Translations under genes and position numbers: made by a program
Notes under the pieces: generated by a model
Databases searched by the model: none
Told to the model about the DNA's origin: nothing
What the model saw: the letters and a program-made list of their open reading frames with translations, nothing else
Shown here: positions 7,210 through 61,209 of the stretch, in pieces
How the letters are laid out: every line of letters begins with the position of its first letter
Position numbering within the stretch: the first letter of the stretch is position 1
Source: Liolophura sinensis
Taxonomy: Eukaryota > Mollusca > Polyplacophora > Chitonida > Chitonidae
DNA length: 64,000 nucleotides
Direction of reading: 5' to 3'
Assembly (NCBI RefSeq): GCF_032854445.1
Contig: NC_088296.1
Coordinates: 7,243,435-7,307,434 of the forward strand

Positions 7210-8462
7210 TCTGTTCCAAAATCATCTGGAGTAGTTCATTTTAAGAAGCCGATGCCGTGGTGGACGGATTAGTGCTCAGCAGCTATCAAAGAGCGCCAGC
7301 GCCGGAAGAACCGAGCGCGACGTACCAGATTAATGGATGATGTTCTATTATATAAGAAAGCTAAAGCTGTAGCACGGTGCATCATTAAGCGAACGGAGAA
7401 AGAATACTGGCTAAAGTTTTGTTCTTGTCTTAATTTCAAGGTTACAAACAAATCTATGTGGAATAAAGTTAATTCCATTAAAATTAAGAGAACTAAAGGT
7501 AATATCCCCACAATTATATCTGATGGGGTAAAAAGTGGGTCCATTGAGGACAAAGCGAATATACTGGTTGATACGTTCTCTTTTGTATCCATTTCGGATA
7601 ACTATAATGTAGATTTTGTCCCACATAAAAATGTTGATGAAGACATGCGCCCTTTCAAAAATATAGCCTATGATGACATGCCTATTACTGACGGCTTTAG
7701 CATTACAGAACTGAAACGGGATTTACCTTCGCCTGCGGATTATTCTCTTGGGGAAGACGGCATTATGTATTCAATGATTAGAATCGTACCTGACCACTGT
7801 CTCAACACTTTATTTTTGTTATATAATACTATATGGTCAAGCATGAAGTTAACGTCTACCTGGAAGAGAGCTGTAGTCATTCCGGTCACCAAACCTGGAA
7901 AAGATCATTCTCTCCCATCTTCATATCGGCCCATAGCTCTAACGTCATGCATCTGTAGAACTATGGAAAGAATCATTAATTCCCGTCTAATATATTTCTT
8001 AACTAAAAGTAATGTTCTGACCTCCGCACAGAGTGGATTCAGGTTTGACAGGTGTACAGCTGAGCATGTGATAACACTAGAAACCGATATTCGTGATTGT
8101 TTTTCAGGTAAAGAGTATTTATTTGCTGTTTTTTTCTGTTGTGTTTTTTTTTTTGGACATTGAAAAGGCATACGTTGTCCTCTGGAGGACGGGTGTGTTG
8201 ATGAAACTGAAGAATACTGTTATAGGTGGGAAAATGTTTGGGGGGGGGGGGGTCGGCACAGAGAGACGAGAGACAACATATTCTTTTCTTATATCCTACC
8301 ATAATTCGTTCTCGACTTGACAACTGCCGTGAAACGTATGACTCTGCACGTAAGACACTTAAGGGTGGATTGGATTCTATTCAGTGCGCTACGGTGCGGA
8401 TTTGTACCGGGTGTATACGATCGACGCCACTAAGCGTCATGCAGGTTTTCTGTAAGGACTGA
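7210..8462 (+). pseudogene. LINE reverse transcriptase remnant
   Basis: The frame reads NNSVPKSS, KKPMPWWTD, then a stop, then an open frame from 7,333 to 8,163. It contains the RT signature SSYRPIALTSCICRTMERII (about residues 190-215 of that frame) and AQSGFRFDRCTAEHVITLE. At the T-rich run near 8,140-8,152 the frame shifts, and motif A (FLDIEKAY) continues in another frame. The region that should carry the catalytic YxDD box is deleted, and the frame resumes near 8,290 with IIRSRLDNCRETYDSA and LRSTPLSV-like sequence. This enzyme family reverse-transcribes the element's RNA at the target site. This copy is dead. Confidence 0.9.
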
Positions 8463-15845: not shown

Positions 15846-17394
15846 TTGGATTTTTTAGTTTTAACTAAGGTTAATTCTTTTAACAGGACTTTAACACATT
15901 CGTCTGTTTCATTTTTGATGTTTCATTATGCTGAAAACCATTCAATGTTTCTTTATATTGACAGTATGGCATTAAGCCCAACTCATTTATTCATTTATTC
16001 ATATATTCATTTTAATGTTACTTGTGATTTATATGTTTATTGTATATTTAATGCATTTCCCGGCCTATGTGTTTCTTTGAAACCCTAAAGTATTTTGTGA
16101 ACTTTGTGTATATGAGTTTTTTTTTTTTGGTATTTCATGTATTTTGCGTCCTCTGTGCGTTCCATATCAGTACTTGTCACATCTTTTGTATTTTACATTT
16201 CCCTGTCACGTGGCTGTACGTTTAATGCCGATTGAATTATATGTGCAGCTGTTGTAACTATGACCTAATCTCATTATACCAATCTCAGAAAATCCACCCG
16301 ACATTTTCCAAAATAACATCAACTACGCAAGTGCTGAATTAAGTTTTGAGAAACTGATATCAACCATATTTTCAATTTATTTTCTCAGAAAGAAACCTGA
16401 TTCAAATGTAAATGATGTAAGAAAAAACTGCTGACCGACTGTCAGGCACTACTTAGTTGATCTGGTCGTCCTGACACTGACACAAACCACACTGGCGAGT
16501 GAGGGTATGTCCTTGCAGAGACTGTAACCTCAGCCTGTGTGTTCACCTCTCTCACTGTCATTAAAAAGTCAGAGTATTTCCTTTAGAAGGAAAAGGATTC
16601 ACGCTCATGCACTTTAACAACCCCTACGCTATTAATGTGAGGTTTTGGGGCTTTGACCTTGAAAGGCATTATGTAAGGTTATGCAGAAGGTAGCTTGTTG
16701 AGGGTGACGTGTGTTAGGGGTACATACATAGCCAGAAAAACCGGTCTATATGGATCGCCCTTTGTTTACTTACAACATTTGCCTGTCTGCTCCAGATATA
16801 AAAACTCTAATAGTAAAAAACTGCTAGTTAAGATATACATGTTCTCATATTTCAAGCCAGGCAACAAAACGTACTACTGTTAAAGTGTTAGTATTGTCCC
16901 AGCTCTACCGAATTCGCGGCGGGTCCTAGAACTTTAAGCGTTTCAGTCCCGTATAGGGGATCTATACGCGTAATCCTGTCCCTGTTACTATTTGTAGAGC
17001 CAGGAATCGCTTGTTCAAAACTGTTTTAAGACTTAATACCGGATTTAACTTTAATCCAAAGCTTCAAGATTGCACTTAGTCCAAAAACAATTGCTTGACA
17101 GTTTATTAAATATGATGTTATACTTTGAATTTGGACAGCCACATTGGCAGCTGAGTTTGGCTAAAATTAAAAATTTAAAACATGACTTAATACATGATAC
17201 ACTTTCGAACAACTGGGCCCAGATGTATATGTATCCGTGAACTGAATGGCTACATGTATTATTAACTCCCCACTCAAAATTCTACAGAGAGAGATACTCC
17301 ATAGGTATGGGCAAATGATCATATGTGGGATCAAATCCCGACATTTTCATATTGACTGAGTTTTTAAATAGCTAGTTTCTAGTTGCTGTACACA
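15846..17394 (+). repeat. TRIM-locus repeat unit, copy 1 (5' flank and intron part)
   Basis: It contains the same ordered landmarks as the intact units: low-complexity TGTATTTTGTG-like DNA, TTTAATGCCGATTGAATT, CTCAGAAAATCCA, GGTCGTCCTGACACTGACAC, CAGCCTGTGTGTTCACCTCT, TTTGACCTTGAAAGGCATTA, GGATCGCCCTTTGTTTACTT and ATGGATGGGAGCTATAT. Compared with the other units, the TATA/5'-exon module that should sit near 16,350 is missing. The sequence leads directly into the broken TRIM exon that follows. Confidence 0.7.
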
Positions 17395-17715
17395 AATCTG
17401 CTAATTATGGATGGGAGCTATATATCTATCGAACATCACTATCAAACACATCTGGCCATATTGACTTTACCAGGCCTTTTCCCCCCCAAAAGTCTAGACC
17501 TGGACAGACAGACGAGGCTTTCGGCAGCACGGAATGTGAAGACGTACATCTGCTCATCTCATACCCTGTATGTCGGACACCAACCAGTCTGAGGAGAGAT
17601 GGTGTGACTGGTCTGCCTCCAACCTTTCATCTGGCAGAAATTGGGAGAGGTTCACTACTGCTGTAAAGGTTGAGGATGACATCCGATGTTGTTCTCTGTG
17701 AGAGGGTAATCAGAT
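17395..17715 (+). pseudogene. TRIM RING/B-box exon relic
   Basis: The first half (ATGGGAGCTATATATCTATC to TTTACCAGGCC) matches the DNA just 5' of the RING exon in gene B (60,842-60,910). After an internal deletion the rest matches the end of the RING and the start of B-box1. One frame reads PVCRTPTSLRRDGVTGLPP and THFHLAE-like residues, against PVCRAPTNLGREGVAGLAP in gene B. The first Cys of the last RING pair is replaced (YPVC). Frameshifts and stops follow within 40 bp. It ends inside B-box1. This is a dead third TRIM copy of the cluster. Confidence 0.85.
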
Positions 17716-30021: not shown

Positions 30022-30159
30022 GTGTAAAAGTGTAAAAGCATACTGAGGGATTTACCTCCCCTGCTCAGATGACGTGTATTTCTCCGAACCAAGTACTTTC
30101 TTGTTTCACTTTGAGCAGTTTTATCAAGTAGAGAAGCACGGTGGGGATTGTGTCGACAG
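30022..30159 (+). promoter_or_regulatory. Candidate TRIM promoter/5'-exon module, proximal copy for gene A
   Basis: GAGTGTAAAAGTGTAAAAGC stands where other copies have TATAAATGTG. ACTGAGGGATTTACCTCCCC, CAGATGACGTGTATTTC and AGAAGCACGGTGGGGATTG follow. It ends TGTCGACAG before GTAAGTCC, a consensus 5' splice site at 30,160. It lies 1.47 kb upstream of the first recognisable coding exon of gene A and is the nearest candidate first exon. The insertion of a SINE just upstream (29,880-30,012) may have displaced the original promoter elements. Confidence 0.55.
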
Positions 30160-31626
30160 GTAAGTCCAGTGAGATATGGTACGTCTATGTTTATGACGGG
30201 ATGTTTCTATGAGGTGACGGAATTGTCTTATTTGATCGTGTGCCCGACTCTCAGACAGTATTTAATTGGTCTGAACGTCCTCAAATGGACACGAAGTCGA
30301 TGTACGACTGGGGGCGTGTCTTTATATAGACTCTACTCTCGGCTTGTGTGTGAACCTCTGATACTGTCTACAAACACTCGCAATATTTTCTTCTCAAGGA
30401 AACGACTGATTTAGCTGGGTTCAAGTTCATACTGTCTAATTATGTTGATCTTCTCACTATATCCAGGACGATAGTACGTTTTTTAATGTACTTTTCTGAA
30501 GCTTTGACCTTGAGAGGCATTATGTAGGGTTTTGCCGAAAGTCGTTGGTTGCCGGCGACGTGCTGTCTGAGGTTGGGCCTACATACATATTGATAGCCAC
30601 AACAACCGACCTGTATGGATCGCTGTTTGTTTACTTATAAGGTTTGCCTCTTTGCTTTAAATATAAAAACTTTAATTGTTAAAAATTTCTAGTTAGGATA
30701 TATATGTCCTCTGTCTGAAGTGTTTGGTTTGATCTTGGATCTTCCGACTTCAAGGCGGGCTTAAACAGAAGGGGTGTATTACACTGTATAAGTAAATCGC
30801 ATCTGAAAATTATGTACTGAATTGCACACAGGATTTTCAGTGTTGCAGAACTGGAAGGCTACGTGTATTAGCAACTTCTCACTCAGCAATCATTACAACC
30901 TCGCCCATTGATCACCAATAATGGGGTGTGTTATATGACACAGCTTAACCAGTCAGGACAGCCGTATACTGCACGTAGGTCTACTTATACATTAGCTCGA
31001 GCTGTCTGTATGAAGGTATCTCTGACGCCGACCTACTTCTACAGTCTACCTGAGGTTACATATCTCAAATCCACGCTTTTAGGTTCTCTTTAAACTGTCC
31101 CTGTCATAACACTGTATCTAACTGGACGTGTACTTCACACTTCTACAGTGGAGCGAAGTCAGCATTTACGGTTTAAACATTTTGTTTGACCAGTGGTGAT
31201 CGGAGGGTGTAGCAGCTCTGCTGTAGTCTGTACTTCTGTGGTTCCTGACAACAACTAATCAAACACTGGGAGCTGGAAGACTTTGACCTTAATTCATATC
31301 CCTCTTTAATCTAAGTAAGACATGTTCGTGTTAACCATCACTATTAGAAATGTGATCTTTATTATATTTCTTAAATTATTTATTATAATTCTGTAGATAG
31401 AGCTGTTCCAAATGTTTTGCCCAATTATCATAAAGTATATAGGGTCAAGTTACCTTCATAACCAATGCAGTTCACAGGCCTGGCCAAATTATCATACTGA
31501 GTCAAGTCCCGACATTGGGGCTGAAGAAGATTTCGCCCTGGCTCTCTGTAAATCCACTTTTAACCCGCGACAGGTTCGTTTTTACACACGAATGTAACTT
31601 TCGTTCTTAACTTTCATCTGGCAGAA
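30160..31626 (+). other. Putative first intron of TRIM gene A, with RING-exon deletion junction
   Basis: The sequence runs parallel to 59,403-60,826 of gene B up to TTTTTACACACGAAT (about 31,581-31,595). The next bases shared with B are CTTAACTTTCATCTGGCAGA, which in B lie inside the RING/B-box exon at about 61,468. About 650 bp present in B are therefore missing here, including the 3' splice site, the ATG and the whole RING. Short open frames in this region show no domain. Confidence 0.8.
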
Positions 31627-32016
31627 ATGGTGGAGAGGTTCTCTACTGCTGTTAAGGTTGAGGAAGACATCCCATATTGTTCTCTGTGTGAGGAGGACAA
31701 TCATGCTAAAGCTGTCAAGTTTTGCACCATCTGTGGTGTGTTCTACTGTCAGGAATGTCTTGCAAATTTCCATCCAATGAGGGGGCCTCTAAAACGTCAT
31801 CGACTGATTTCGGCTCTGGAGTACCTCTCCCAGGAAACCTCACAGGGTGAAGTCAGCAGGGACCACCAATCAACTCAGCAGCCGTTATGTGCTAGACACG
31901 GTCAGCCGTTCGTCATGTACTGTGAACCCTGTCGGATGGTGATCTGTGTGGGTTGTGTGTTTGAGCATCCGGGACATGCTGTGCGGGATATACCATCTGC
32001 AGCTGAGAATGACAAG
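31627..32016 (+). CDS. Gene A exon 1: B-box1 and B-box2
   Basis: It encodes 130 residues. B-box1 is YCSLC...FCTICGVFYCQEC followed by FHP and KRH, the same ligand spacing as MID-type B-box1. B-box2 is CARHGQPFVMYC, EPC, VICVGC and EHPGH. The exon ends at GACAAG before GTAATG. The start is uncertain: TTCTTAACTTTCATCTGGCAG before AAATGG (31,624|31,625) looks like a usable 3' splice site, so the ATG at 31,627 could follow a non-coding 5' exon directly. Compared with gene B, the first ~135 nt carry one change, while the rest has about 12 amino-acid changes. Confidence 0.8.
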
Positions 32017-35000
32017 GTAATGCGAAAAAGATATGCGTATATCAGCCATCAACCGAAATCGATGTTCTGAGTCATTAATCATAAGGTCAATTCTCAATAC
32101 AACGATTAACACGAACCAGGAAGAAACTAAAAATTTGTGCAAATTTAAAATTACGCTGGAATCACGTAAAGAGAAGTGGTAAACAGTTTTCAATGATTTT
32201 AAAAAGACGCAAAGAATGTTTTGAGCGAATAACTTAAATCACTATCTAAATCGCGTATCATGTCAGTATATAGGTCGATAATCAAAATAAATATATCATG
32301 ACTTGGAGCTATATATTAACCCAAAGGTTGTGATCTATAGTGAAGAAAGGGTCTTTGTGTCCTGTACTGTAGTGAGTCATTTGAAAGGCGGATTTTTTAA
32401 TGTAGCTTTCTTTCAATTACAGCCAGTTGTTTTGAACAAGACGAGTGAACTGGAGAAAATGCTACAAGAAACTAAAGAATCACTGTCAGGAGTTATGAGG
32501 CTGCACAGCAAGATACAGGTTGGTATTTTCCATGACACCTGTTCAGCTTTGGTTGTACTGCACACGCTAGTGACTCATTTTGACTATGTGGAGTATTGCT
32601 ATCGCTCACAAATCCAGGTAACATACAGCTGCCAATCATTTAGCCTTGATAAAGCTGTCTTCTGTCACATATTATATATGTAGATTACAATCAAAGAGTT
32701 AAACCTGAACAGTGACGATTTTTATAAAAACACTATAATACACGGTTTGATGCGGAGATGTATTTGCATAAAGGACGAGTTTATTTTGTCTATTTCTGGT
32801 TTATCTAATAAGACTATCGTATCATTATTATGACTTTTTCCTAAGTAACACACGGTATATGCCCATCTCAGACAGCTCCATTTGATGTATTATCGCCGAT
32901 AATACGCTGTCATAACGTACTTTGGGTTTTGAGTCGACACTTACATGTACATCCCTAAACTAGAGGGAAATCATCTCCATCCCGGAGATACATTGTAGCC
33001 ACAGTTGTGTGGCGCTTATATTTCACCCTGTTACACATACATATATAACTTCTTCAACACACAATTCTAAAGGTCTGGATGAGGCAGTAAGCGATTTTTC
33101 TGTTTGGTAGGAAAACCAGGAACTTCACACTCAGGAGGTAGAAAAGGCTTATTGTGCAGCCTTGGAAGCTTTACAAGCATGGAAACAACAGTCCTTAGAT
33201 GGCATAAAAACCCGCTATTCACAGTGGAGCGTGGAGTGTAGCGCTATACTCAAACATTTTCAGCTACAGACCCAGGAAATGGAGAGGATGGTACAGGCTT
33301 CCAAAGATTTGTTAGCGTCAATGGACGTCGAGTTTTTGCAGGTAAGTCAAATGTGCACATCCTCAAACACTGGTTCAGCTGCTTCAACTCCGGATGTTAC
33401 CCATACCACAACCACCCTTAGGAACTGTTATCAGGTGTTGAAATCCATCTCATGCTGCCAAATCTACTAAGGTTGATTCGAATTCAACAGTTTTGTTTTG
33501 CTCAGTGGTACCCTCCGGTCGCTGTCAACTTTTCTACCCATAACCGAACCACTGTCCGATTAAAGCAATAGAGTAGCAACATACAATGTGAAAAAGAACA
33601 TACTGCACACTGTTTTTCAAAAACAAGGTTTGTATGAAAACAGATCTTTGGGGGAAAATTACATTGCATGAAACACCATGGGATTTATTAATCGGAATTG
33701 AGAGCTGATGTGAACTATATAATAGAATGGAATGTAATTGTAATCAGGGAATGGTCTAAAAGATTTTATAACTGTGTACTTGTAATATGTTGAGGTGAAA
33801 GTATGGCTACAGTATCTCAGTTTCGGTTATCATCTTTACATGATTTTATGTGTTTTCAATTCTGTTTGTTGACAGGGTTCCACAGACTTCACCAAAACGT
33901 ATGTATAAATGTGTAATACCGCTCTGGGTTTGTTATACATTTGGAGGTCTCTGTTGTCAGCAGATATGTTTCTATATCATTTAGTACCAGCACTGTAGTT
34001 ATCCAAAACATGACCCGACTGTAAAATATATCCAATGTTTAAACATACGTTTGTCCGGACAAATCAGATCTAATCTACTAGGAACAGTACATCATGGCAT
34101 TCTTATAACTGCGTTGTACACAAGATTACTACACGACTGTGTCTCTTTGTTTTCTCTTCTCATCTCACAGAATTGATGACCAGCTAAAAGATATAAGAGC
34201 AGATCTGGAGAAACATGAGGTCAGCAAACAGAAGCTTCTAGATTCTGTACAACATGACTACGTTGTCCCTAGACAGGTGACTGTAAAAGAACGTCGGGAC
34301 TTAGTTACAAGTAAGTTCGTATATGTATGAAAAATATACAGAAGGGTGTGCCGAAAGGACGTAAACAACTGTAGGGTTTATGTTAGTATGTGCATCGAGT
34401 GAGTGAGTGAGTGAGAGCTTGGGGTTTAACGTCGAACATAACAACTTTTCAGTCATATGATGACAATGTGTGCATCGAAGACACAAACATAAAAGTATGA
34501 GGTGTACACTAGGGTGTGATCAAAACTGGGGTTTGGGAAAAAGGCACAAAGTTATGCAAGGTGTAAGTAGGGTGTACACAGAAGACACACACTAATGTGG
34601 GACATGCATTAGGCTGTTCACTAAGCATACCACATAAACCTATCCATCCCCTTAAGGTCTTCACAACAGATACAAACTAGTGGGAGGCATGCACTAGGGT
34701 GGGCAAAACAGATACAAACTCATGTGAGGCATTCACTAGGGTGGGCAAAACAAGATAGAAACTCATGTGAGGCATGCACTAGGGTGCGGAAAACAAGATA
34801 GAAACCCATGGGAGGCATGCACTAGGGTGGGCAAAACAAGATAGAAACTCATGTGAGGCATGGACTAGGGTGGGCAAAACAAGATATAAACCCATGGGAG
34901 GCATGCAATAGGGTGGGCAAAACAAGATAGAAACTCATGTGAGGCATGCACTAGGGTGGGCAAAACAAGATAGAAACTCATGTCAGGCATTCACTAGGGT

Positions 35001-38000
35001 AGGCAAAACAGATTCAAACTAATGTGAGACATGCACTTGGGTGGGCAAAACAAGATAGAAACTCATGTCAGGCATGTACAAGGTTGGGCAAAACAAGATA
35101 GAAACTCATGTCAGGCATTCACTAGGGTGGGCAAAACAAGATAGAAACTCATGTGAGGCATGTACTAGGTTGAGCAAAACAAGATAGAAACTCATGTGAG
35201 GCATGCACTAGGTTGAGCAAAACAAGATAGAAACTCATGTGAGGCATGCACTAGGGTGGGCAAAACAAGATAGAAACTCATGTGAGGCATGCACTAGGAT
35301 GGGCAAAACAAGATAGAAACTCATGTCAGGCATGCACTAGGTTGGGCAAAACAAGATAGAAACTCATGTCAGGCATGTACTAGGGTGGGCAAAACAAGAT
35401 AGAAACTCATGTGAGGCATGTACTAGGGTGGGTAAAACAAGATAGAAACTCATGTCAGGCATTCACTAAGTTGGGCAAAACAAGATAGAAACTCATGTGA
35501 GGTATGCGCTAGGGTGGGCAAAACAAGATAGAAACTCATGTGAGGTATGCACTAGGTTGGGCAAAACAAGATAGAAACTCATGTGAGGCATGCACTAGGG
35601 TGGGCAAAACAAGATAGAAACTAATGTGAGGCATTCACTAGGGTGGGCAAAACAGATACAAACTAATGTGAGACATGCACTAGGGTGGGCAAAACAAGAT
35701 AGTATCTAATGTGAGGCATGTACTAGGGTGGGCAAAACAAGATAGAAACTCATGTGAGGCATGCACTAGGGTGGGCAAAACAAGATAGAAACTCATGTGA
35801 GGCATGCACTAGGGTGGGCAAAACAAGATAGAAACTCATGTGAGGCATGCACTAGGGTGGGCAAAACCAGATAGAAACTCATGTGAGACATACACTAGGG
35901 TGGGCAAAACAAGATAGAAACTCATTTGAGGCATTCACTAGGATAGGCAAAACAGATACAAACTAATGTGAGACATGCACTAGGGTGGGCAAAACTAAGT
36001 TAGAAACTAATGTGAGGCATGTACTAGGGTGGGCAAAACAAGATAGAAACTCATGTGAGGCATGCACTAGGGTGGGCAAAACCAGATAGAAACTAATGTG
36101 AGGCATTTACTAGGGTTGGGAAAACAAGATAGAAATTAATGTGAGGCATGCACTAGGGTGGGCAAAACAAGATAGAAACTCTTGTGAGGCATGCGCTAGG
36201 GTGGGCAAAACAAGATAGAAACTAATGTGAGGCATTCACTAGGGTTGGTAAAACAAGACATACACTAATGTGAGGCATGCACTAGGGTTGGCAAAACAAG
36301 ATAGAGACTCATGTGAGGCATGCACTAGGGTGGGCAAAACAAGATAGATACTAATGCGAGGCATGCACTAGGGTGGGCAAAACAGATACAAACTAATGGC
36401 AGGCATGCACTAGGGTGAGCAAAACAAGATAGAAACTAATGTGAGGCATACACTAGGGTGGGCAAAACAAGATACAAACTAATGGGAAGCATGCAGTTGG
36501 GTGGGCAAATCAAGATAGAAACTAATGTTAGACGTGCAATAGGGTGGGCAAAACAGATAGAAACTAATGTGAGGCATGGAAAAGGGTGGACAAAAAAGAC
36601 TCGCAAGCTCGTCCCTTTCCTGGGCACCCAGGACTCGTCCATACAGGACCATACAATCAAATAACCTATAATAGAGTACCTTGTGGGCAAAGGACACAGG
36701 CTAATGTAAGGTATACAATAGAGTGTGCACGGAAGACACAGAATAATGTGAGGTATACAGAAAGGTGTGCTCAGAAGACATAGACTCATGTAAGACTTAC
36801 AGTAGGGACTGTACAAAAGACACAGACCAATGTGAGGTATACAATAGGGTGTGCCCAGGAGACACAGATACAATAGGGTGTGCCCAGGAGACACAGACCA
36901 ATGTGTTGTATAGAGAAGGGTGTGTTCAGAAGACACAGACTAATGTGAGGTGTGCAGTAAGGTGTGCACAGAAGACATAGACTCATGTGAGACTAACAGT
37001 AGGGTATGTACAAAAGACACAACCTAATGTAAGGTATACAGTGGGATGTCCCCAGAAGACACAAACAGATGTGAGGTATACAGTAGGGCATGCTCAAAAG
37101 ACACTGACTAATGTGAGGTACACAGTAAGGTGTCCCAAGAAGATAAGCTGATAAGAGGTATACAGCAGGGTATGCCCAGAAGACACAAACAAATGTGAGG
37201 TATACACTGGAGTGTGCCCAGAAGACACAGACTAATGTGAGGTTTACAGTAGGGTGTGCACAAAGTACACAAACAAATGTGAGGCATACACTGGGGTGTG
37301 CCCAGAAGACACAGACTAATGTGAGGTATACAGTAGGATATGCTCAAAGTACACAAACAAATGTGAGGTATACACTGGAGTGTGCCCAGAAGACACAGAC
37401 TAATGTGAGGTTTACAGTAGGGTGTGCACAAAGTACACAAACAAATGTGAGGCATACACTGGGGTGTGCCCAGAAGACACAGACTAATGTGAGGTATACA
37501 GTAGGATATGCTCAAAAGACACAAACTAATGTGAGGTATGCAGTAAGATGTGCCAAGAAGACACAGGCTGATACGAGATATACAGTAGGGTATGCCCAGA
37601 AGACGCAAACTAATGCAAGGTATACAGTAGGATGTGCACAGGAAACACAGATTAATGTGAGGTATACAGTAGGGTGTGCACAAAAGACACAAAGAATTGT
37701 GAGGTGTATAGTAGAGTGGGCCCAGAAGACAACAACTGAAGTGACGTATACAGCAGGGTGATGTATTTTATAGGGTGTGTACAGAGAACACAACCTAATG
37801 TGAGACATAAAATAGTGTGTGGTACTCGTAAAGTGTACAGTTGGCTCTTTGAAGTCAAAAGGCATTCAGTAGGCCATTCTAAGAAATATAAAGCCAATGT
37901 AAGCTATATACACAATGGTTCGCTAAAAATTAATAAAAAGGTAGTGTATATAACATTATGTTTTTTTTCGTTTTTTTTTAATGGAAGTACATTGCAGAGC

Positions 38001-39508
38001 TTTATATCAGCAGCTGTATAGTTAGAACAGGACAGATAGTTGTGTAACCCCTTTGTCAGGTGTACTGTTAGGACAGAACAGATAACATATTGTACCCCTG
38101 AGTGTCTTGAGTGATATTTACCTCATGTGTACAAATCAGCAGATGTACTGTTAGGACAGAACAGATAACATATTGTAGCCTACCCCTCGGTGTCAAACAT
38201 GTATTTCAAAGGGAAAACAACCCTCATATCTGTTTTATTGTTAATATTAAAGGGTTTCCATCTATGTATGTAGAAATAATTGTTGATCTAGATTTATTTC
38301 CTCACTTGATATAAGTTTGCTTTTAAAATTTAAATATATTAACTATCCTTTAAAAATATATTGGAGAAACTTCAATAGTTAGAAGATTCCAATACTTCTT
38401 GATTACTAATAATTCTGATGGATTAAATAGTCTTTTGAACATTGTGGCAAAAGAATGTCACTTGGTAAGTTATATGTGGCGAGTTACCTCCCTTACTAGA
38501 GGACGGCTTCGGTAGCTGGTCACTCCACGAATGACAACAGGTCTACCACAGCTTCATAGTGAGTTTTGTGTTCAAATGTGCCATAACTGATAACTAAAAC
38601 CAAGTACCGGATAGAGGAAGGTATTGTTCTTGTTGTAGGCAATAAGTTTCAAACAAATTAGAGCGCTAAATGTGTGTATTTTAACGCATTACTCGGCCTA
38701 TGTCGTACCCGTCAGTTAGTCATATATCCAGTTCTTGTCGAAGCACAACTCTTTTAAACTGGCTGAAAATGAGAGAGATCGGTGTATAAATTACATTCGT
38801 GTCAGCAGTATATGTTATTTTATTCCAAGACATTGTGTGGAGAAAGTAAAACTACGGTATGTGTACACCTCAGTCTTACAGCGTGTGTTTATGGTTTGCT
38901 GTTGTTTATACTGCTTCTGTTGTGTGTTTGCAGAGCCGACGCTGAGATTCACAGAGACAGACGACCGTGAGCTGAGAATTACTGACAGCGGCTCTATGGT
39001 AGAGGGTAAGGACTTGTCCCAGATGAGGTGGTGGAGAACTGTGACAGATGGGCGTTACCAGACGGGCAGGTACTACTGGGAGCTACACATCACCTGTTCA
39101 CATGGCTGTAACTGTGATGTAGGAGTGACACAAGAGAGGTGTGGTGTGAGGGGGAGGCTAGACCCTGGCCGTAACTCCTGGTACATTTTGATGGGGTATA
39201 GTGGTGATAAGGTCAGGTGTTGTAGTTACCGTGGTGGTGGTGAGATCAAACCTGACTATCTACAGTACAGACGTTACACACGACCTCATCACCTGGGTGT
39301 GTACCTGGACTGTGATGACCACACACTGACATTCCTGGACTGTGACAACAACCAGGTAATGTACACTGTCAGTGATGTTATCGTCACAGAGCCTCTCGTG
39401 CCATGGGTTAGGTTTTGTGTTGGGCCTGGATCTGTGTCTGCTCGTCTGGTAACGGGTGACTCTGCAACTCTGCCTCCAGTTCTCTGTGATATGATAAGCA
39501 CTTCCTGA
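31627..39508 (+). CDS. TRIM gene A: B-box1, B-box2, coiled coil, SPRY; RING missing
   Basis: The model joins six exons: 31,627-32,016; 32,423-32,518; 33,111-33,341; 33,876-33,898; 34,171-34,310; 38,934-39,508. Every internal junction is GT/AG and the phases (0,0,0,2,1) fit, giving one frame of 484 codons plus a stop. The product has two B-box zinc fingers, about 150 residues of coiled coil and a C-terminal B30.2/SPRY domain. TRIM proteins dimerise through the coiled coil and bind targets with SPRY; the RING normally supplies E3 ubiquitin-ligase activity. The paralogue at 61,210 has a perfect RING where this gene has a deletion, so this product should lack ligase activity and could act as a regulator or dominant-negative partner (inference). 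The ATG at 31,627 equals Met94 of gene B. The upstream frame is open only to about 31,563 without another ATG. Expression is unproven. Confidence 0.8.
32423..32518 (+). CDS. Gene A exon 2: start of coiled coil
   Basis: This 96-bp phase-0 exon lies between TTTCAATTACAG and GTTGGT. It encodes PVVLNKTSELEKMLQETKES and then LSGVMRLHSKIQ, a heptad-like helix. The gene B counterpart has the same length and three or four residue changes. Confidence 0.85.
33111..33341 (+). CDS. Gene A exon 3: coiled-coil core
   Basis: This 231-bp phase-0 exon follows TCTGTTTGGTAG and is followed by GTAAGT. The 77 residues begin ENQELHTQEVEKAYCAALEA and end SMDVEFLQ, Glu/Gln/Lys-rich with no proline, as expected for the RBCC dimerisation helix. 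The 231-bp single exon is the typical size of the coiled-coil exon in many TRIM genes. Confidence 0.9.
33876..33898 (+). CDS. Gene A exon 4: 23-nt microexon
   Basis: It lies between TTTGTTGACAG and GTATGT. It reads GGT TCC ACA GAC TTC ACC AAA AC (GSTDFTK plus two bases) and restores phase between the coiled-coil exons. The gene B copy is 23 nt as well, with one change (GSTGFTK), and its splice sites are intact. The 23-nt size matches the microexon found between coiled-coil exons of many vertebrate TRIM genes. Confidence 0.85.
34171..34310 (+). CDS. Gene A exon 5: end of coiled coil / linker
   Basis: It follows CATCTCACAG and ends TTAGTTACAA before GTAAGT. With the microexon it reads TIDDQLKDIRADLEKHEVSK, QKLLDSVQHDYVVP and RQVTVKERRDLVT. 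It is a charged helical linker that enters the SPRY exon in phase 1. Confidence 0.88.
34398..34475 (+). repeat. Dispersed repeat fragment ('CTTGGGGTTTAACGTCG' family)
   Basis: GAGTGAGTGAGTGAGAGCTT leads into GGGGTTTAACGTCGAACATA and CTTTTCAGTCATATGATGAC. This is the 5' end of the family also seen at 20,108 and 49,300. It is inserted at the edge of the intronic minisatellite. Confidence 0.75.
34660..36595. repeat. 43-bp minisatellite in the last intron of gene A
   Basis: About 45 tandem units contain GCACTAGGGTGGGCAAAACA, AGATAGAAACTCATG and TGAGGCAT. Variation occurs at fixed positions (GCACT/TTCACT/GTACT, GTGAGG/GTCAGG, AGATAG/GATAC), so unit types are interspersed. The purine-rich strand is the sense strand of the gene. 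Minus-strand frames crossing its right end are repeat translations. Confidence 0.95.
36670..37800. repeat. 42-bp minisatellite in the last intron of gene A
   Basis: About 26 units contain AATGTGAGGTATACAGTAGG, GTGTGCCCAGAAGACACAGA and CT. Because 42 is divisible by three, long frames stay open on both strands: 37,195-37,761 plus (14-residue repeat QTNVRYTVGCAQKT) and 37,108-37,692 minus (CLLGTPYCIPHISL). It can be aligned with the 43-bp array (shared GGGTG-GC, AGA-AC-AACTAATGTGAGG), so both probably descend from one repeat. A larger repeated block (about 168 bp) is visible between 37,185 and 37,500. Confidence 0.93.
38000..38180. repeat. Three imperfect copies of a short repeat
   Basis: GTTAGRACAGRACAGATA, followed in two copies by ACATATTGTA, occurs near 38,020, 38,067 and 38,151 within the last intron of gene A. 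There is no coding content. Confidence 0.7.
38934..39508 (+). CDS. Gene A exon 6: B30.2/SPRY domain and stop
   Basis: The exon begins after TGTGTTTGCAG. The spliced Lys codon leads into PTLRFTETDDRELRITDSGS. Conserved SPRY features follow: RYYWELHI (the WEV/WEL motif), CDVGV, NSWYILMGY (the SW motif) and HLGVYLDCDDHTLTFLDC, ending VPWVRFCVG and a stop at 39,506-39,508. The length (191 codons from the junction) suits a full B30.2. SPRY binds the protein target and decides specificity. The Cys content (for example CSHGCNCDVG and RCCSY) is high for the family. Reading from an upstream ATG (38,735) would run through intron sequence, so the splice acceptor is preferred. Confidence 0.93.
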
Positions 39509-45479: not shown

Positions 45480-46140
45480 GTGTTATTTTACAAATGCTGG
45501 CAACTGAAAATGTAAAACTTACTCCAGTTAAGTCAGTAGCTGACAAACGTTTGACAATTTCGTGATATTATATAACTTACAGAGATTATTTAACCTACAG
45601 AGAACACCTATTGTCTTTTCAAGATATATGTCCCTACAAAAATTTAATGATCGGGATCATGGTTTTACAAATTCTGGTAATTCTATCCAATAACCGGAAA
45701 TATAAAACCTGTCCCTTCTAAGCCAATATTTGACAAACTTAAAGTTTCAGACGCATGTGTAATTTAGAGAGAAAACCTACGACGCATCAATTAATCCAAT
45801 TTCCGACTTCATATGGGTCTATGTGGACACATATGCCATTTTTACACATATCGTGTATCGTTTTACAAACTGCTAACCGAAAATATAAAACCATTACATC
45901 TGATTCAACTTGCAGTTTTACCAAATAATATGTGACTTACAGTGAACACTTATATTGCACAATAACTTATATAGATATAGAGCTGTAAACGCAAGTCCAC
46001 TTTTCCAAATTTTACACTTTAAGGGTGGATGTTTTACTAATTCTCTTAAGAAAAACAAACAAAATCTTCCTCAACCGATTCATCAATTGCTAGTATTTTA
46101 AACAATAAATAATTTTAACAATTACATAATTTCACAAAAT
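45480..46140. repeat. Old ~180-bp tandem repeat
   Basis: A motif of the form TTTTACAAATTCTGG followed by AACCGAAAATATAAAAC recurs at about 45,490, 45,665, 45,860 and 46,030, so the period is roughly 170-195 bp. Between the motifs, GACAAACTT-like, GTGATTTACAG-like and GAACACCTA-like words recur in order. The copies are strongly diverged. There is no coding sequence. Confidence 0.5.
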
Positions 46141-46217
46141 ATCAGTCTGTTGAAAGATGTTTTAGTGACTTTCAGATAACGGTAGTTACACACACGCTGA
46201 CGACACTACAGGCGAAG

Positions 46218-46284
46218 ATGATGGCTACGAAAGATGAAATGGCGGAATACAAAAAGCTCGAAAAGCCAAGAGAGAGCCAGTCAG
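46218..46284 (+). CDS. Possible first coding exon of an orphan gene
   Basis: GCGAAGATGATGGC is a favourable start context. The frame reads MMATKDEMAEYKKLEKPRES and QS, and is cut by CAGTCAG before GTGACC, a possible 5' splice site in phase 1. The composition is more coding-like than its surroundings. I cannot join it directly to the exon at 47,604 because the phases disagree, so an intermediate exon or a different gene is needed. No family is recognised. Confidence 0.3.
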
Positions 46285-46788
46285 GTGACCTCGATAAGAC
46301 ACGAACTTTGGTCCGGTTAAGGGGAGCAGTACAATTTCTTTTTTTCGTTCCATTGCGTCTGTCACCAGGGAATATCATTATAATGCGCTCTTCTTTTTTT
46401 CTGACGTGCACTTTCTACCGTCAGAACTATCCAATCAATACTTCGTATAGAAAACGAAAATGGTAGCAACGACTTCTCTGGAATGTAAAATTTTCTTTGG
46501 GTAAACTAAGGATGCTTGGAAACAGGCAAACAAATATCACAATAAACCAAATAAACATAATCAAGATCACGGTCATTGGACGTTATCACCCACGAGGTGG
46601 AGTTCAGGGAAAAACAAGGGTTCAGGTCGCCTCTTCCAATCAGAAAACGACCGTTTTGAGACGTCCTGTGGAGATTTAAAATTGGAGCAATATAGGACTT
46701 AGCTGAAATCACATGTTAACTGAGTCATGACCTTCCTTGCCAGGCTAATGCATATAAACTATACTGAGTTGCTATTTTATAAAAGGAA

Positions 46789-46805
46789 GGGGGGGGGGGG
46801 GGGGG
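46789..46805. repeat. 17-nt G homopolymer
   Basis: Seventeen consecutive G follow AAAAGGAA. The length may be affected by sequencing error. Confidence 0.9.
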
Positions 46806-47149
46806 TGAGTATTTCTTGTCAAGGGTGTGTTTTCAACAGTGAAAAAAACAGGAGTCGCAAAAAGTGAAAAAGAAACTTCTGTGAAGAAAACACTAAGACA
46901 AAATGCAAAATACACTTGACTAGCTATAATTTTACCAAAACTACCTTGTATTGTAAACAAAGCTTCAGAATTGTCTTTTGTCCGTCGTTTAAGAAACACT
47001 GTTATGGTATACTTGAATAGATTTTCTGTGTCTGTAGCGGCCTTCGATAATGAATTAGTTGATTTGTTTGCCATATAATGTTATGGTGCGACTAGATATA
47101 GATGTGCTTAAAAGACATCTATTTCGGCGGTGTCAGGATTATTTGCAAT

Positions 47150-47245
47150 CTGGCCTGGCCGGAGAGGATGCCAGCATGATCTGGAATTCAACTCACGGGG
47201 ACTGTATTGGTGAGAGGCTCCTGGGTCATTGCTGGGACAAGATGT
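47150..47245 (-). mobile_element. SINE internal fragment
   Basis: GGCCGGAGAGGATGCCAGCA, GGAATTCAACTCACGG and GGTGAGAGGCTCCTGGGTCA match the antisense middle of the SINE family. Both ends are missing. Confidence 0.75.
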
Positions 47246-47603
47246 GACAAACCATACATATAACGTACAACAGAGGATAAAATTGGCACCAACATGGTAT
47301 CACGTATTTTTAATTTACAAAGTCCTCTAAAAATTCTTCCTAGAAAATAAGTGTTTATGTCGGAACACAGCTCTTATTGGATATTCTTTTTTGCTACACC
47401 GTTTTTTTTCAGTGAAGTATTTACCAGCATATAATTTGATTGACTAAGGTATTTACTAACACTCAATTAATAAGGTAGAGTTTACCAACGTGTGAAATGA
47501 TTTGACGATACCACTAAAACCTTTGTGAGACGTCATTTGTTTACTTCTTCAATGTTTTTTTTGCTTTTTCTTTCTTTGTTCTTCACTCTACCTTTCTCGA
47601 AAG

Positions 47604-47915
47604 GGCTACAATAATAACTTGTTCACTCGTCTGGACAACGCTGACTTAGAGCCGGAAACCGTTCCTGATTGTTTGGATATAGACACCAAACACTGCCCGG
47701 ATGCCAAACTACTCATCAGGGCCATGAAAAGCAAGGATTACTCCGGCTTCTGGACGGACAATACGAGCAGCTACGAAGGAGAGAAGGAAATCATCCACGT
47801 GACCAACGAGCGGAAATCTCGACTGGAATCCTTCAGGGCAATTCCCGAGCGCAAGACGGAAAAATCTAAGCAACGCTTAGTTTCTTCGTCCAAGGGAGAA
47901 AGTTTCCACCAATAA
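47604..47915 (+). CDS. Putative exon of an orphan gene
   Basis: A very strong pyrimidine tract (from about 47,550) ends CTCGAAAG, followed by an open frame GYNNNLFTRLDNADLEPETV, then DTKHCPDAKLLIRAMKSKDY, SGFWTDNTSSYEGEKEIIHV and ERKSRLESFRAIPERK. It stops at TAA (47,913-47,915) after SSSKGESFHQ. GC content and codon choice are clearly more coding-like than the flanks. The product is hydrophilic and charged with no domain that I recognise. It may be a terminal exon, or the first part of a longer frame broken by a frameshift, because coding-like sequence continues to about 48,960. Confidence 0.45.
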   Translation, partial: GYNNNLFTRLDNADLEPETVPDCLDIDTKHCPDAKLLIRAMKSKDYSGFWTDNTSSYEGEKEIIHVTNERKSRLESFRAIPERKTEKSKQRLVSSSKGESFHQ

Positions 47916-48960
47916 CATTAAGGTAGACAAACTGGAAGATCCGGATCTGTACGTTTCACGCCGGTTAAAAAGGTCCAGAATTCCAGTGAAAAGGACAGGA
48001 AGTCTCCTCAAGACTCAGCAGGAAATGTACGGATAAACTGCCTTGTGTAGTCAAAATGACCCCAAAACAGAGACATGGCAAGAACCTCTCCCATAAACAG
48101 GGAAAAGCCATATCATGGAGGACAAGGTATGCCGTGGCGAACTGAACACCAGGATGGAAGCCAACAGATTCATGCGAGTACTCCATGGTGATCTTTAGAA
48201 CACAAGGAGAGAGAATGCAGGAGGCTGGCAGGAGGGAGACAGCTTCTAATGTGGAATATCTAGCAAAGCTTAGAAATGTACGGAATCATGTTGAGTGAAT
48301 CATGGAGAAACAAAAACCTGAGAAAGAAGCCATGTTCTTTTGCCGGAAGATCGCAGGCGATGGCAGAGTATTGCTCTCACCTTGCGATGGCACAGACCTG
48401 ATATTAGACAAGCATCTGGCTCCATCACCTACCCACTACTGTCCCGTATTTCCTCAGGAAAAACAAAGTTATGAAGGATCAGTGGAGAAGCCATGGTCGC
48501 CAGAACCTCTGAAGAACGAGACATCTGCTGGACTGCCGGAACCAGTGTCAGTAAACACTGGCCCTCATGTGCGCGTGCACTGTTCGTTAGAAGATGGGGG
48601 CTACCAAACCAGTTTCCATTCAGTCAATGGTGGCAAGATATCCGAGAAAAATCAAGCTGACAAACCATGCACACTCCCTCTGCCCACTTCAAACTTACTA
48701 GTCAGAACTTGCCCCCAACTCAAAGTCTGAGACAACCTATACCCCACACCACACATGGAGCCCAACACCCAAAAGTTAACAGCATGGGAGGGTGTAGGGA
48801 AGCTGGAGACAAAACCAATCCTCTGTTTAGAGCCGAGACTGTTAATACAGATGGAGAAGTCGAGCGTATCAAAGACGGGAGACCAAGTCTACATCAGCAT
48901 CAGGAGAGATCGAGGGCTGTTTGTTCTCTGACAACTCCTGTGGCAGTGAATAATCGTAAT
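47916..48960 (+). pseudogene. Continuation of orphan coding region, frameshifted
   Basis: Coding-like composition continues in changing frames. KLRNVRNHVE is followed by a stop and then by an open frame 48,302-48,730 (MEKQKPEKEAMFFCRKIAGD, LLSPCDGTDLILDKHLAPSP, SVEKPWSPEPLKNETSAG). A further frame covers 48,667-48,963. Either the gene is decaying or the assembled sequence contains indels. No known domain is visible; the region is rich in Pro, Ser, Lys and Glu and probably disordered. Confidence 0.35.
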
Positions 48961-48965
48961 TAAGT

Positions 48966-49012
48966 TTATGTATGTATGTATGTATGTATGTATGTATGTA
49001 TGTATGTATGTT
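48966..49012. repeat. (ATGT)n microsatellite
   Basis: About eleven ATGT units lie immediately before the TTTATTT tail of a SINE. Confidence 0.95.
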
Positions 49013-49261
49013 TATTTATTTATTTATTTGATTGGTGTTTTACGCCGTACACAAGAATTTTTCATTTATACGACGGCGGCCAGCATTATGGTGGGAGGAA
49101 ACCGGACAGAGCCCAGGGGAAACCCACGACAATTTGCAGGCGGCTGGGTGACCTTCCCACCACCATGAGCTGGACTTGAACTCACAGCGACCGCTTGGGT
49201 GAGAGACTCCTGGGTCATTACGCTGCGCTAGCGCGCTAACCAAATCAGCCACGGAGGCCCC
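49013..49261 (-). mobile_element. tRNA-derived SINE, near full length
   Basis: It runs from TTTATTTATTTATTTGATTG through TTTTACGCCGTACACAAGAA and GGTGGGAGGAAACCGGACAG to the antisense head CAGCCACGGAGGCCCC. Open frames on both strands are a property of the SINE. Confidence 0.93.
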
Positions 49262-49289
49262 ATGCTTGTGTGTATATGTGGATGTATGT

Positions 49290-49620
49290 GTGTATGGGTG
49301 GATGTATGGGGTTTAACGTCGTAGATAAAAAATTTTCAGTCATATGATGACGTGGAGTCATTAAATTGTGTGTTCTTGAGGCAGGGTAAGTCGATAGCCC
49401 TGAAGTGCTTCCACCACTGAAGTATCATATCGAAAACACTAGTTATGACATCCCATCTAATGAGATTATACTGACACCAGGTCAACCAGTCATGTGTCCT
49501 AGCTTTAACCTCTCACTGCTGAGTACCGCGCAAGGCAGCAACAAATAGGCCTACCATTTTTAAAGTGTTTGATATTACCTCATTTCGAGGCGGACATTGT
49601 AACCACTAGGCCAACGAAGC
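49290..49620 (+). repeat. Dispersed repeat of the 'GGGGTTTAACGTCG' family, diverged
   Basis: ATGGGGTTTAACGTCGTAGA, TTTTCAGTCATATGATGACG and AGATTATACTGACACCAGGT followed by CAACCAGTCATG follow the order of the 20,108 copy, with many changes. Confidence 0.6.
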
Positions 49621-50081
49621 GGTAATTAAGTTTATGTCTTCGCGGTATATCATCTGGTATCCAATTACCCTAATTCTATCAGTATCCAAATCAAACCACC
49701 GTGAGGATATCAGCGGGTAAAAGTAATATCCACGGTCAGTTTGACAGAAAGAAAAGGCACCATTGCTGAAAACAGTTTGCACCATAACACGATGTCTGAA
49801 AGCCAATCGGTTATTGAACTACCTTCATATTGCTGGTAAAATATATCAGAACATTGGACGGCTGGAGTGTACGGAAGTGTAGTCTGTTTGAGCGAGAGAG
49901 CGAAGTTCTCCCCTGGCGGCTGGAAGCCTGATTGCAGAGACGTTGTCGAATTGAATTTTATACCTTTACTTCTTTACATACATTTTGGGATAGAGGTATA
50001 TTTCATATAGGGTTGACTTATTGTTTGCGAGCTTTAAGTTATAAAGTATTCAAACTTAAGAATGTTGTTTTTGTGTTCAGA

Positions 50082-50526
50082 ATTTAGGCCTACTGGCCCA
50101 AGACCAACAAGAGGCAAATTCCCACACAAGGGGAGAGGCCGTGCGTGTCTGAAGCCGACGTTGGCTGCTAACTTCGCTCGTCATCTGCCACAGCCCGATT
50201 CCTCCTTAACCCGGAAGCAGCCAGCGACCAGTCCAAACATTATCCGTGGCTGTCGGGAGATCAGGCCAACAAGATTTGGACAACAGTCAGAGCAGACGAC
50301 CAGCCGAGTTCACCCAAGTGACACGGGCAATGACGTCAACTCCAGCCAGGCCAGCCGTGAGCCGTCGTCGACTCAAGCCAGGTCGGATACTATGAGATTG
50401 CCTGGGGGAGGGCCAGATCAGATTCAGAGGAAAAGTGTCGGAGAGAGACTTGTTAGCTTTGTCAGGCGACGCTGGAATCAACTCCAGCAAAGTGCCAAAT
50501 GCTTAAATTGTGCTGCAGAGCCTTGA
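50082..50526 (+). CDS. Terminal exon of an orphan gene
   Basis: TTGTTTTTGTGTTCAG is a good 3' splice site and is followed by an uninterrupted frame ending in TGA at 50,524-50,526. In frame it reads FRPTGPRPTRGKFPHKGRGR, NFARHLPQPDSSLTRKQPAT, PTRFGQQSEQTTSRVHPSDT, SSQASREPSSTQARSDTMRL and ends GERLVSFVRRRWNQLQQSAK plus CLNCAAEP. It is markedly GC-richer than the flanks. The protein end is basic, Arg/Ser/Pro-rich and probably disordered, with a short amphipathic, Trp-containing helix at the C-terminus. AATAAA lies 91 bp after the stop. No family is recognised. It may be the last exon of the gene with the 47,604 exon, but no joint was established. Confidence 0.55.
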
Positions 50527-59402: not shown

Positions 59403-61191
59403 GTAAGTCCTGTAAGATATGGCACGTCTATGTTTATGACGGGATGATTCTATTAGGTGAAGGAGATGTCTTATTTGATCGTGTGCCCGACTCTCACACA
59501 GTATTTAATTGGTCTGAACGTCCTCAAATGGACACGAAGTCGATGTACGACTCGGGGCGTGTCTTTGCATAGACTCTACTCTCGGCTTGTGTGTGAACCT
59601 CTCATACTGTCTACAAACACTCGGAATATTTTCTTCTCAAGCAAACGACTGATTTAATTGGGTTCATACTGTCTAATTATGTTGATCTTCTCACTATATC
59701 CAGGACGATAGTACGTTTTTAATGTACATTTCTGAAGCTTTGACCTTGAGAGGCATTATGCAGGGTTTTGCTGAAAGTCGTTGGTTGCCGGCGACGTGCT
59801 GTCTGAGGTTGGGCCTACATACATATTAATAGCCACAACAACCGACCTATATGGATCGCTGTTTGTTTACTTATAAGGTTCGCCTCTACGCTTCAAATAT
59901 AAAAAAAGACTGTAATAGTTAAAAATTTCTAGTTAGGATATATATGTCCTCCGTTTGAAGTGTTTGGTTTGATCTTGGATCTACCGACTTCCAGGCGGGC
60001 TTAAACAGAAGGGGTGTATTACACTGTATAAGTAAATCGAATCTGAAAATTATGTACTGAATTGCACACAGGATTTTCAGTGTTGCAGAACTGGAAGGCT
60101 ACATGTATTATTAACTTCTCACTCAGCAAGCATTACAACCTCGCCCACTGATCACCAATAATGGGGTGTGTTATATGACACAGCTTAACGAGTCAGGACA
60201 GCCGTATACTGCACGTAGGTCTACTTATACATTAGCTCGAGCTGTCTGTATGGAGGTATTGTTGACGATGACCTACTTCTACAGTCTACCTAAGGTTACA
60301 TATCTCCAATCCACGCTTTTGGGTTCTCTTTAAACTGCCCCTGTCATAACACTGTATCTAACTGGACGTGTACTTCACACTTCTACAGTGGAGCGAAGTC
60401 AGCATTTACGGTTTAAACATTTTGTTTGACCAGTGGTGATCGGAGGGTGTAGCAGCTCTGCTGTAGTCTGTACTTCTGTAGTTCCTGACAACTAATCAAA
60501 CACTGGGAGCTGGAAGACTTTGACCTTAATTCATATCCCTCTTTAATCTAAGTAAGACATGTTCGTGTTAATCATCACTATTACAAATGTGATCTGTATT
60601 ATATCTCTTTAATTATTTATTATAATTCTGTAGATAGAGCTGTTCCAAATGTTTTGCCCTATTATCATAAAGTATATAGAATCAAGTTACCTTCATAACC
60701 AATGCAGTTCACAGGCTTGGCCAAATTATCATATTGAGTCAAGTCCCGACATTGGGGCTGAAGAAGATTTCGCACTGACTCTGTAAATCTACTTTTAAAC
60801 CGCGACAGGTTCGTTTTTACACACGAATCTGTTCATTATCTGGATGGGAGCTATATGTCTATCGAACATCAGTATCAAACACATCTGCCCAAACTGGCTT
60901 GACCAGACCTTTGTCAAAACAGTCTCTCGTGGGCAATAAAGGGTTGGATCGCTAAATTTCTAACTGACCAGAATGGATTCCTTTTCAGAAAAGTGATTTA
61001 CGCACACTCTCCTCATACATGAATAGGTACTTAAATGCTTTTTAAATGAGAATAGGAGAATAGCAACTAAAAAGTAACGTGTATAGTGTTGAAATAGGCG
61101 GAGGCTGTGTGTTGTCTTGAAAGTTAATATTTTTTTAAATAGGAACACCCTCACAGGTGCCAATCTGAGCGATTTGTCGTTTTTATTTCAG
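59403..61191 (+). other. Putative first intron of TRIM gene B
   Basis: The intron has 5' splice site GTAAGTCC at 59,403. The sequence to about 60,826 is nearly identical to 30,160-31,595. From 60,827 it contains DNA deleted in gene A, including ATGGGAGCTATATGTCTATC and CTGACCAGAATGGATTCC. It ends in GTCGTTTTTATTTCAG at 61,191. No other exon is recognised. Confidence 0.65.
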
Positions 61192-61209
61192 GAAAAAAAA
61201 CCTAAGCAA

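Follow-up and report, generated by a model that had tools for sequence, protein, structure and literature searches.

A RING-less TRIM gene with an open reading frame in an array of RING-bearing sisters in Liolophura sinensis

Within an array of TRIM genes of the mollusc Liolophura sinensis is a copy, gene A, from which the RING finger has been removed by a deletion. What remains of the gene is a B1–B2–coiled-coil–B30.2 frame, its coiled coil being putative, in the domain order of TRIM16. Lacking a RING finger, A does not have the make-up of an orthodox TRIM E3 ligase, and two fates for it are about equally likely: that it is a RING-less partner of its sister copies, or that it is an incipient pseudogene.

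The window, that is, the whole stretch of DNA analysed here, comprises 64,000 nucleotides without any N (C2:7243435–7307434), and whole-genome searches covered the 609-Mb genome, in which eight matches to the molluscan haemocyanin beta-sandwich domain follow one another on a single contig, in keeping with a mollusc. Gene A spans about 30–39.5 kb of the window; gene B, used throughout for comparison, starts at about 59 kb and runs past the end of the window into the copy designated L008. Both are members of a large TRIM family, concentrated on contig C2 and built of a RING, two B-boxes, putative coiled-coil exons and B30.2. Elsewhere in the window are a reading frame with a reverse-transcriptase (RVT_1) match (7273–8163) and, between A and B on the + strand (46119–50526), four open frames that may be another gene, none of which matches Pfam at E up to 0.01.

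The features that define the deletion are as follows.

31594–31604, + strand: deletion junction, an 11-bp insert replacing 638 bp of gene B (alignment, junction probe)
60829–61466, + strand: gene B segment absent from A, comprising the end of intron 1, acceptor, ATG 61210 and RING (alignment)
61192–61878, + strand: exon 2 of gene B, encoding a RING and two B-boxes and used for comparison (alignment, Pfam)

Aligned with gene B, gene A lacks 638 bp (60829–61466 of B) and carries in their place 11 bp (31594–31604, GTAACTTTCGT). Homology between the two genes ends at 31593 in A and 60828 in B, the last positions of TTTTTACACACGAAT (A 31579–31593, B 60814–60828), and restarts at 31605 and 61467; the start of CTTTCATCTGGCAG is at 31611 in A, 61473 in B and, in a decayed copy, 17624. 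Contained in the segment missing from A are the end of intron 1, the acceptor (exon from 61192), the ATG at 61210 and the RING, and the alignment thus bears out the initial annotation, in which the loss comprised the first coding acceptor, the ATG and the RING. The breakpoints given there (A about 31,595 and 31,611; B about 60,826 and 61,471) are right in essence and need small corrections, to 31593/31605 and 60828/61467. What had been called a clean deletion of about 650 bp is confirmed as a loss, of 638 bp, but the junction with its 11-bp insert is not perfectly clean. Eight of the inserted bases, TAACTTTC, copy the sequence immediately to the right of the break. A short templated insert at a break is the usual look of end joining, and the repair route at the A junction was probably error-prone end joining with such an insert.

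The assembly does contain the deletion. When a 121-bp probe spanning the junction was searched against the genome (best 40 of 84 candidates scored), the junction itself was the single full-length match, the other 40 matches listed covering one side only; a second copy or haplotig of the A locus was rejected on this single full-length match. Near-identical tandem repeats assemble poorly, so that an assembly error or a collapsed haplotype had to be considered, but an 11-bp sequence peculiar to the junction, A-specific differences in its flanks and a window free of N all speak against this, and we regard such an error as most improbable. A RING exon elsewhere that might join A, a possibility raised in the initial annotation, was looked for by tblastn (E up to 1) and rejected, no match being found between 17.7 and 61.2 kb of the window; at the same threshold the only RING sequences in the window are in gene B and in a decayed tail at 17490–17621.

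Following the junction are six exons, modelled as listed here.

31625–32016, + strand: gene A exon 2, ATG 31627, two B-boxes (exon model, Pfam)
32423–32518, + strand: gene A exon 3, 96 bp, putative coiled-coil part 1 (exon model)
33111–33341, + strand: gene A exon 4, 231 bp, putative coiled-coil part 2 (exon model)
33876–33898, + strand: gene A exon 5, 23-bp microexon (exon model)
34171–34310, + strand: gene A exon 6, linker, 140 bp (exon model)
38934–39508, + strand: gene A exon 7, B30.2/SPRY and stop (exon model, Pfam, profile, fold)

Joined in this way, the exons give 484 codons and a stop, fully open, with each exon flanked by AG and GT wherever splicing requires it; the intact 484-codon frame reported earlier is exact under this model. 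The 96/231/23 exon pattern is that of vertebrate SPRY TRIMs. Much of intron 6 is taken up, at 34668–37760, by two adjoining minisatellites (a 43-bp unit in 45 copies and a 42-bp unit in 26) that are also present in sister introns, and one frame through them is open for 204 codons by virtue of the repeat structure.

Both B-boxes of A are recognized by Pfam (zf-B_box, 49.8 bits, two stretches, above the Pfam cut-off), with a further match to the ANCHR-like B-box (46.6 bits), and they score higher than those of gene B, whose exon matches the Pfam RING in addition to the B-boxes. Exons 3 and 4 are homologous to the putative coiled-coil exons of the sisters, the reading frames that hold them having no Pfam match, and their peptide is identical to that of seven local sisters at 98–106 of 109 residues (L006, in which exon 4 is shorter, was left out). 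The SPRY domain is matched by Pfam (43.4 bits) and by the profiles of 2fbe (RFPL1-like, E of 4.5e-5) and TRIM21 (E of 2.7e-4 to 3.5e-4). Its AlphaFold model, of moderate confidence (pLDDT of 68.7 and pTM of 0.70), superimposes on MID2 with a Z-score of 13.7 and r.m.s.d. of 2.9 over 141 aligned residues; as the non-TRIM SPRY chains of RanBP10 (12.9, 3.4 and 154) and Ash2L (12.7, 2.9 and 141) follow within about one Z unit, the model identifies the fold and not the nearest relative.

The start of the gene is less secure, and two features bear on it.

30155–30161, + strand: putative 5′ UTR exon donor, GACAG/GT (exact string in four of eight copies searched)
31605–31624, + strand: candidate 3′ splice site from former coding sequence (score 1.9)

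A putative upstream exon is closed at 30159 by the donor GACAG/GTAAGT, found as an exact string in A, L002, L005 and L007 of the eight copies searched. For the predicted start of A (acceptor 31625, ATG 31627) the sequence makes a possible, not a strong, case. The putative acceptor scores 1.9, below all 38 family acceptors (2.8–15.5; class means 7.8–14.1), with the position matrix built from the same 38 distinct acceptors that serve for comparison; this places it in the top 1.9% of the 3,758 AGs in the window. Its AG is inherited coding sequence, exon-internal in each of the seven sisters in which it could be placed, and the matching site in the sisters scores between −1.6 and 2.5, with GG in L005. 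An AG with an ATG is therefore present where a new 3′ splice site had been suggested, but the AG is old and its score weak.

Inside exon 2, a better-scoring AG is found at 31753 (6.9 compared with 1.9), and the exon 3 acceptors of the family score 2.8–12.9. These values favour a shorter product, in which exon 1 would be joined to exon 3 or to the AG at 31753 and the coiled coil and B30.2 would be made without one or both B-boxes; skipping of exon 2, however, leaves internal ATGs only, and we consider a shorter product unlikely. At the other end of the gene, the nearest poly(A)-type hexamers lie 0.84 kb or more beyond the stop, a distance that counts against a functional A.

Around gene A the RING is kept in all eight of the other array copies examined (B and L001–L007; C2:7.11–7.36 Mb). 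Throughout the genome the B-box region of A has at least 123 matches, at least 92 of them near-complete (at least 115 of 136 residues), and by hand count at least 63 of these 92 are on C2; these lower bounds amount to the many tandem copies of a finTRIM-like array. Of the 92 B-box exons, 85 (a lower bound) have, within 400 bp, a RING match covering 70 or more of 87 residues, four have a partial match and three have none, namely A and two distant genes, C5:17047547 (40% identity, and a partial RING match some 2 kb further upstream) and C6:81895881 (31% identity). For this census the best 150 of 209 RING candidates were scored and RING matches adjoining no B-box match were excluded by eye, and an absent RING match is not proof of absence except in A, where the sequence was read directly. 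Within these lower bounds, A is the only close relative among the 92 B-box exons that has no RING match at all.

Two further loci show the family in other states. At C3:25382900–25392815, many RING and half-RING pieces, some with a stop, are arranged head to tail and adjoin B-box pieces. At C13:1263250–1263900 (L023), a SPRY exon is 82% identical to that of A, whereas the B-box match at C13:1281369, some 18 kb distant, is only 58% identical, a difference that suggests exon exchange between branches of the family.

Under the same model B, L002, L003, L005 and L007 also have an uninterrupted frame between the ATG of exon 2 and the stop of the SPRY exon, whereas the RING-bearing copies L001 and L004 have broken SPRY exons; in L001, L002 and L003 the edge of exon 6 was taken from A without a following GT, and the exon 6–7 link is putative. 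In L013, exon 7 breaks close to its end; L006 has no exons 5–7 in the 18 kb examined (200 N within), and L015 has no exon 7. The start of exon 2 itself is lost in two further copies, at breakpoints that differ from that of A, and both copies are otherwise defective. One of them lies in the window.

16625–17705, + strand: decayed 5′ remnant of another copy, lacking B 60913–61388 (acceptor, ATG and first part of the RING) (alignment)

No downstream exons were found for this remnant. The other copy, L009 at C2:838072, has half a RING and matches B only from 61304 onward, and the nearest upstream match to B ends at 60209; L009/L020 (C2:836000–848000) has an open SPRY and is without coiled-coil exon 4. 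Among the three copies that have lost the start of exon 2, A is the only otherwise whole one. This recurrent loss may reflect a fragile spot or plain decay and, having occurred in defective copies, somewhat favours the reading of A as a pseudogene.

An incipient pseudogene would have lost its RING, native acceptor and start by chance and would be open in frame either because it is young or because conversion has refreshed it. We hold this to be a serious possibility, a little short of probable. The replacement acceptor is weak and decay is common in the array, as seen in the remnant at 16.6–17.7 kb and at C2:838072, which lack the same exon start, and in the broken SPRY exons of L001 and L004; A is in addition a mosaic of its sisters, so conversion could have kept its frame open. 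Against this, the 484 codons contain no lesion, even with the native start and acceptor lost: six exons remain open and the internal splice sites correct, despite private changes at 1.53% of intron sites. The contrast with the half-RING copy, the remnant near 17 kb, L001 and L004, all of them defective, favours a functional A. The absence of obvious decay after the loss, emphasized in the initial annotation, thus stands as regards the open frame and the internal splice sites; since the deletion may be young, it is weak evidence.

Pairwise dN/dS between A and ten copies is 0.20–0.65 over exons 2–4, a measure that does not isolate the branch of A itself. The comparison of nonsynonymous with synonymous change suggested for A earlier gives low pairwise values and leaves too few private changes for A itself: three nonsynonymous and one synonymous in exons 2–4 relative to ten copies, or three and two relative to the seven local ones. 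The corresponding counts in the sisters range from one and one (B) to seven and three (L002). From the introns of A, with 26 private changes in 1,701 sites (1.53%), about 7.6 replacements would be predicted in exons 2–4, and three are seen (Poisson about 0.055, hand arithmetic), a marginal deficit that hints at constraint, which may have acted before the RING loss or after it. The SPRY exon of A has nine nonsynonymous and four synonymous private changes, the most replacements of six local intact copies. The private changes of A in exons 2–4 are too few to tell constraint from drift, and the changes in A may be older than the loss of its RING; with so few of them, a test of selection on the A branch was dropped, and no claim is made from it.

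Along the gene the nearest sister of A shifts from window to window, among L005, L002, L001/B, L004, L003, L007 and others, which indicates that gene conversion or a similar exchange is active and further blurs any test of selection on A. The pairing of A with B as a special tandem partner, proposed in the initial annotation, does not hold up, the nearest copy to A changing along the gene.

The alternative to a pseudogene, that A is transcribed and yields a RING-less protein pairing with its RING-bearing sisters, is one we put forward tentatively, short of calling it probable. A germline break in intron 1/exon 2 of A, repaired by error-prone end joining with a templated insert, would have removed the RING. 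The gene would be transcribed from its unchanged 5′ region, the first ATG of exon 2 would be used, and the protein would pair with the sisters through the near-identical coiled coil. With 98–106 of 109 residues identical, A should join any dimer that the sisters form, and mixed dimers of A and a sister are plausible from the sequence. To these, A would lend its own B30.2 specificity while lowering the ligase dose of the sisters, and it may in this way serve as a regulator or decoy.

In the family as a whole, the B30.2 domain is under diversifying selection. Counted over 43 SPRY exons (36 of 40 fetched, with A, B, L002, L003, L005, L007 and L014; L046, L047 and L059 were dropped by the start pattern and L036 because its stop lay outside the piece), mean dN is 0.097 and mean dS 0.056, giving an omega of 1.72 (codon bootstrap 1.25–2.39; 0 of 2,000 at or below 1). 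For 30 RING/B-box exons (23 of 35 fetched, with B, L001–L005 and L007; 12 pieces were dropped by boundary patterns though their translations are open across the region) the same counting gives 0.31 (0.24–0.40). A codon model on a nucleotide tree gives an omega of 2.02 for the SPRY exons (lnL of −5796.15, compared with −5827.29 at an omega of 1) and 0.41 for the RING/B-box exons (−5007.67, compared with −5074.09); the model assumes a single tree, which recombination breaks, but the counting result needs no tree.

Single SPRY pairs are nearer to 1 (omega of 0.69–1.65). In ten copies, eight of them local, mean JC divergence is 0.089 upstream of the exon, 0.098 in it (45 pairs each) and 0.091 downstream (28 pairs). 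Locally, then, flanks diverge about as much as the exon, and it is the genome-wide set that carries the strong omega signal. The same figures led us to reject special constraint on the synonymous sites of this exon, the flanks being as similar as the exon in the ten copies; the low SPRY dS more likely stems from homogenization of the 3′ part of the genes.

Among 212 SPRY columns, 79 are invariant, and 19 exceed an entropy of 1.5 bits, one of them with five sequences only. Codons at these variable columns are near-fixed in their third base and range widely in the first two (for example, TGG, AGG, CGG, GGG, GTG, GCG and GAG). Of the 17 variable columns that could be positioned in A, six pairs are two residues apart where 1.4 are expected (100,000 random draws, P about 0.001, at an entropy cut-off of 1.5 that was set with no prior plan), and from this spacing the variable residues probably share one face of a sheet. 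Eleven of the 17 lie in predicted strands, as do half of all residues, so this proportion is not striking alone. The hypervariable SPRY codons (for example, window 38936–39505) merit separate study. Diversifying selection on the B30.2 domain makes an immune-type recognition role of the family likely. More speculatively, and in our estimate doubtful, the array could be a germline repertoire of B30.2 receptors, mixed by conversion and varying at alternating residues on one sheet face, in which RING-less copies would act as specificity subunits of mixed dimers, allowing combinatorial recognition and a tunable ligase dose.

RING-less TRIMs are known elsewhere, and A is a further example, set in a fast-evolving B30.2 family. 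Closest in domain content is human TRIM16, which like A has two B-boxes and B30.2 without a RING, with a coiled coil that in A is putative, and which, in the available part of its description, heterodimerizes with MID1, TRIM24 and PML (PMC3357404). TRIM16 is called one of the oldest TRIMs in those passages (PMC3357404), whereas a local deletion gave rise to A, among sisters that bear a RING. The nearest relatives of A in this genome are these sisters; its likeness to TRIM16 is one of domain order, and no orthology is claimed. By analogy with the B-box-dependent ligase activity reported for TRIM16 in the same excerpts (PMC3357404), A might still be a ligase through its B-boxes, given the shared domain order; its B-boxes are, however, set apart from those of the RING-bearing sisters by nothing but a higher Pfam score than those of B, and such activity seems very unlikely.

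Six human B-box proteins without a RING are mentioned in the accessible portion of one survey (PMC2533329). TRIM5 gamma and delta are described, in the section available, as dominant negatives for which coiled-coil mixing is assumed (PMC1906832), but they are splice forms without the B30.2 end, and A is a separate gene without a RING. In zebrafish, btr31 is reported, in the extract at hand, to have lost both its B-boxes and its coiled coil, while btr32 next to it is intact (PMC3137616); A has lost its RING instead, and comparison with eight neighbours that bear a RING allows the deletion to be followed at single-base resolution. A is a RING-less TRIM at a seemingly early stage, with the scar and its eight RING-bearing neighbours side by side, so that its fate as adaptor, decoy or decaying gene can be tested directly.

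As regards the family, the part available of an early survey covering fly, worm and sea squirt gives no SPRY group-2 TRIMs in invertebrates (PMC2533329), class IV-like TRIMs are noted in cnidarians and placozoans and thought ancient in another source seen as an extract (PMC3137616), and a B-box family is among those expanded in bivalves according to a passage of a third (PMC8382680). No paper on a SPRY-TRIM expansion in molluscs is among the matches listed from the open-licence literature, and PMC10875847 is without the whole words tripartite, TRIM, SPRY and RING. The finTRIMs of teleost fish, in the excerpt available, are a large lineage-specific TRIM-B30.2 set with diversifying selection in B30.2 (PMC2657112), and the family described here likewise comprises many TRIM-B30.2 copies under diversifying selection in that domain, a resemblance in kind. 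In finTRIMs, according to the same excerpt, a few selected sites lie just upstream of the RING (PMC2657112), whereas here the RING/B-box exons are under purifying selection on average; the host is moreover a mollusc, and the variable sites include alternating residues in predicted strands. If the resemblance is borne out, large and fast-evolving TRIM-B30.2 repertoires would have expanded separately in fish and in this animal.
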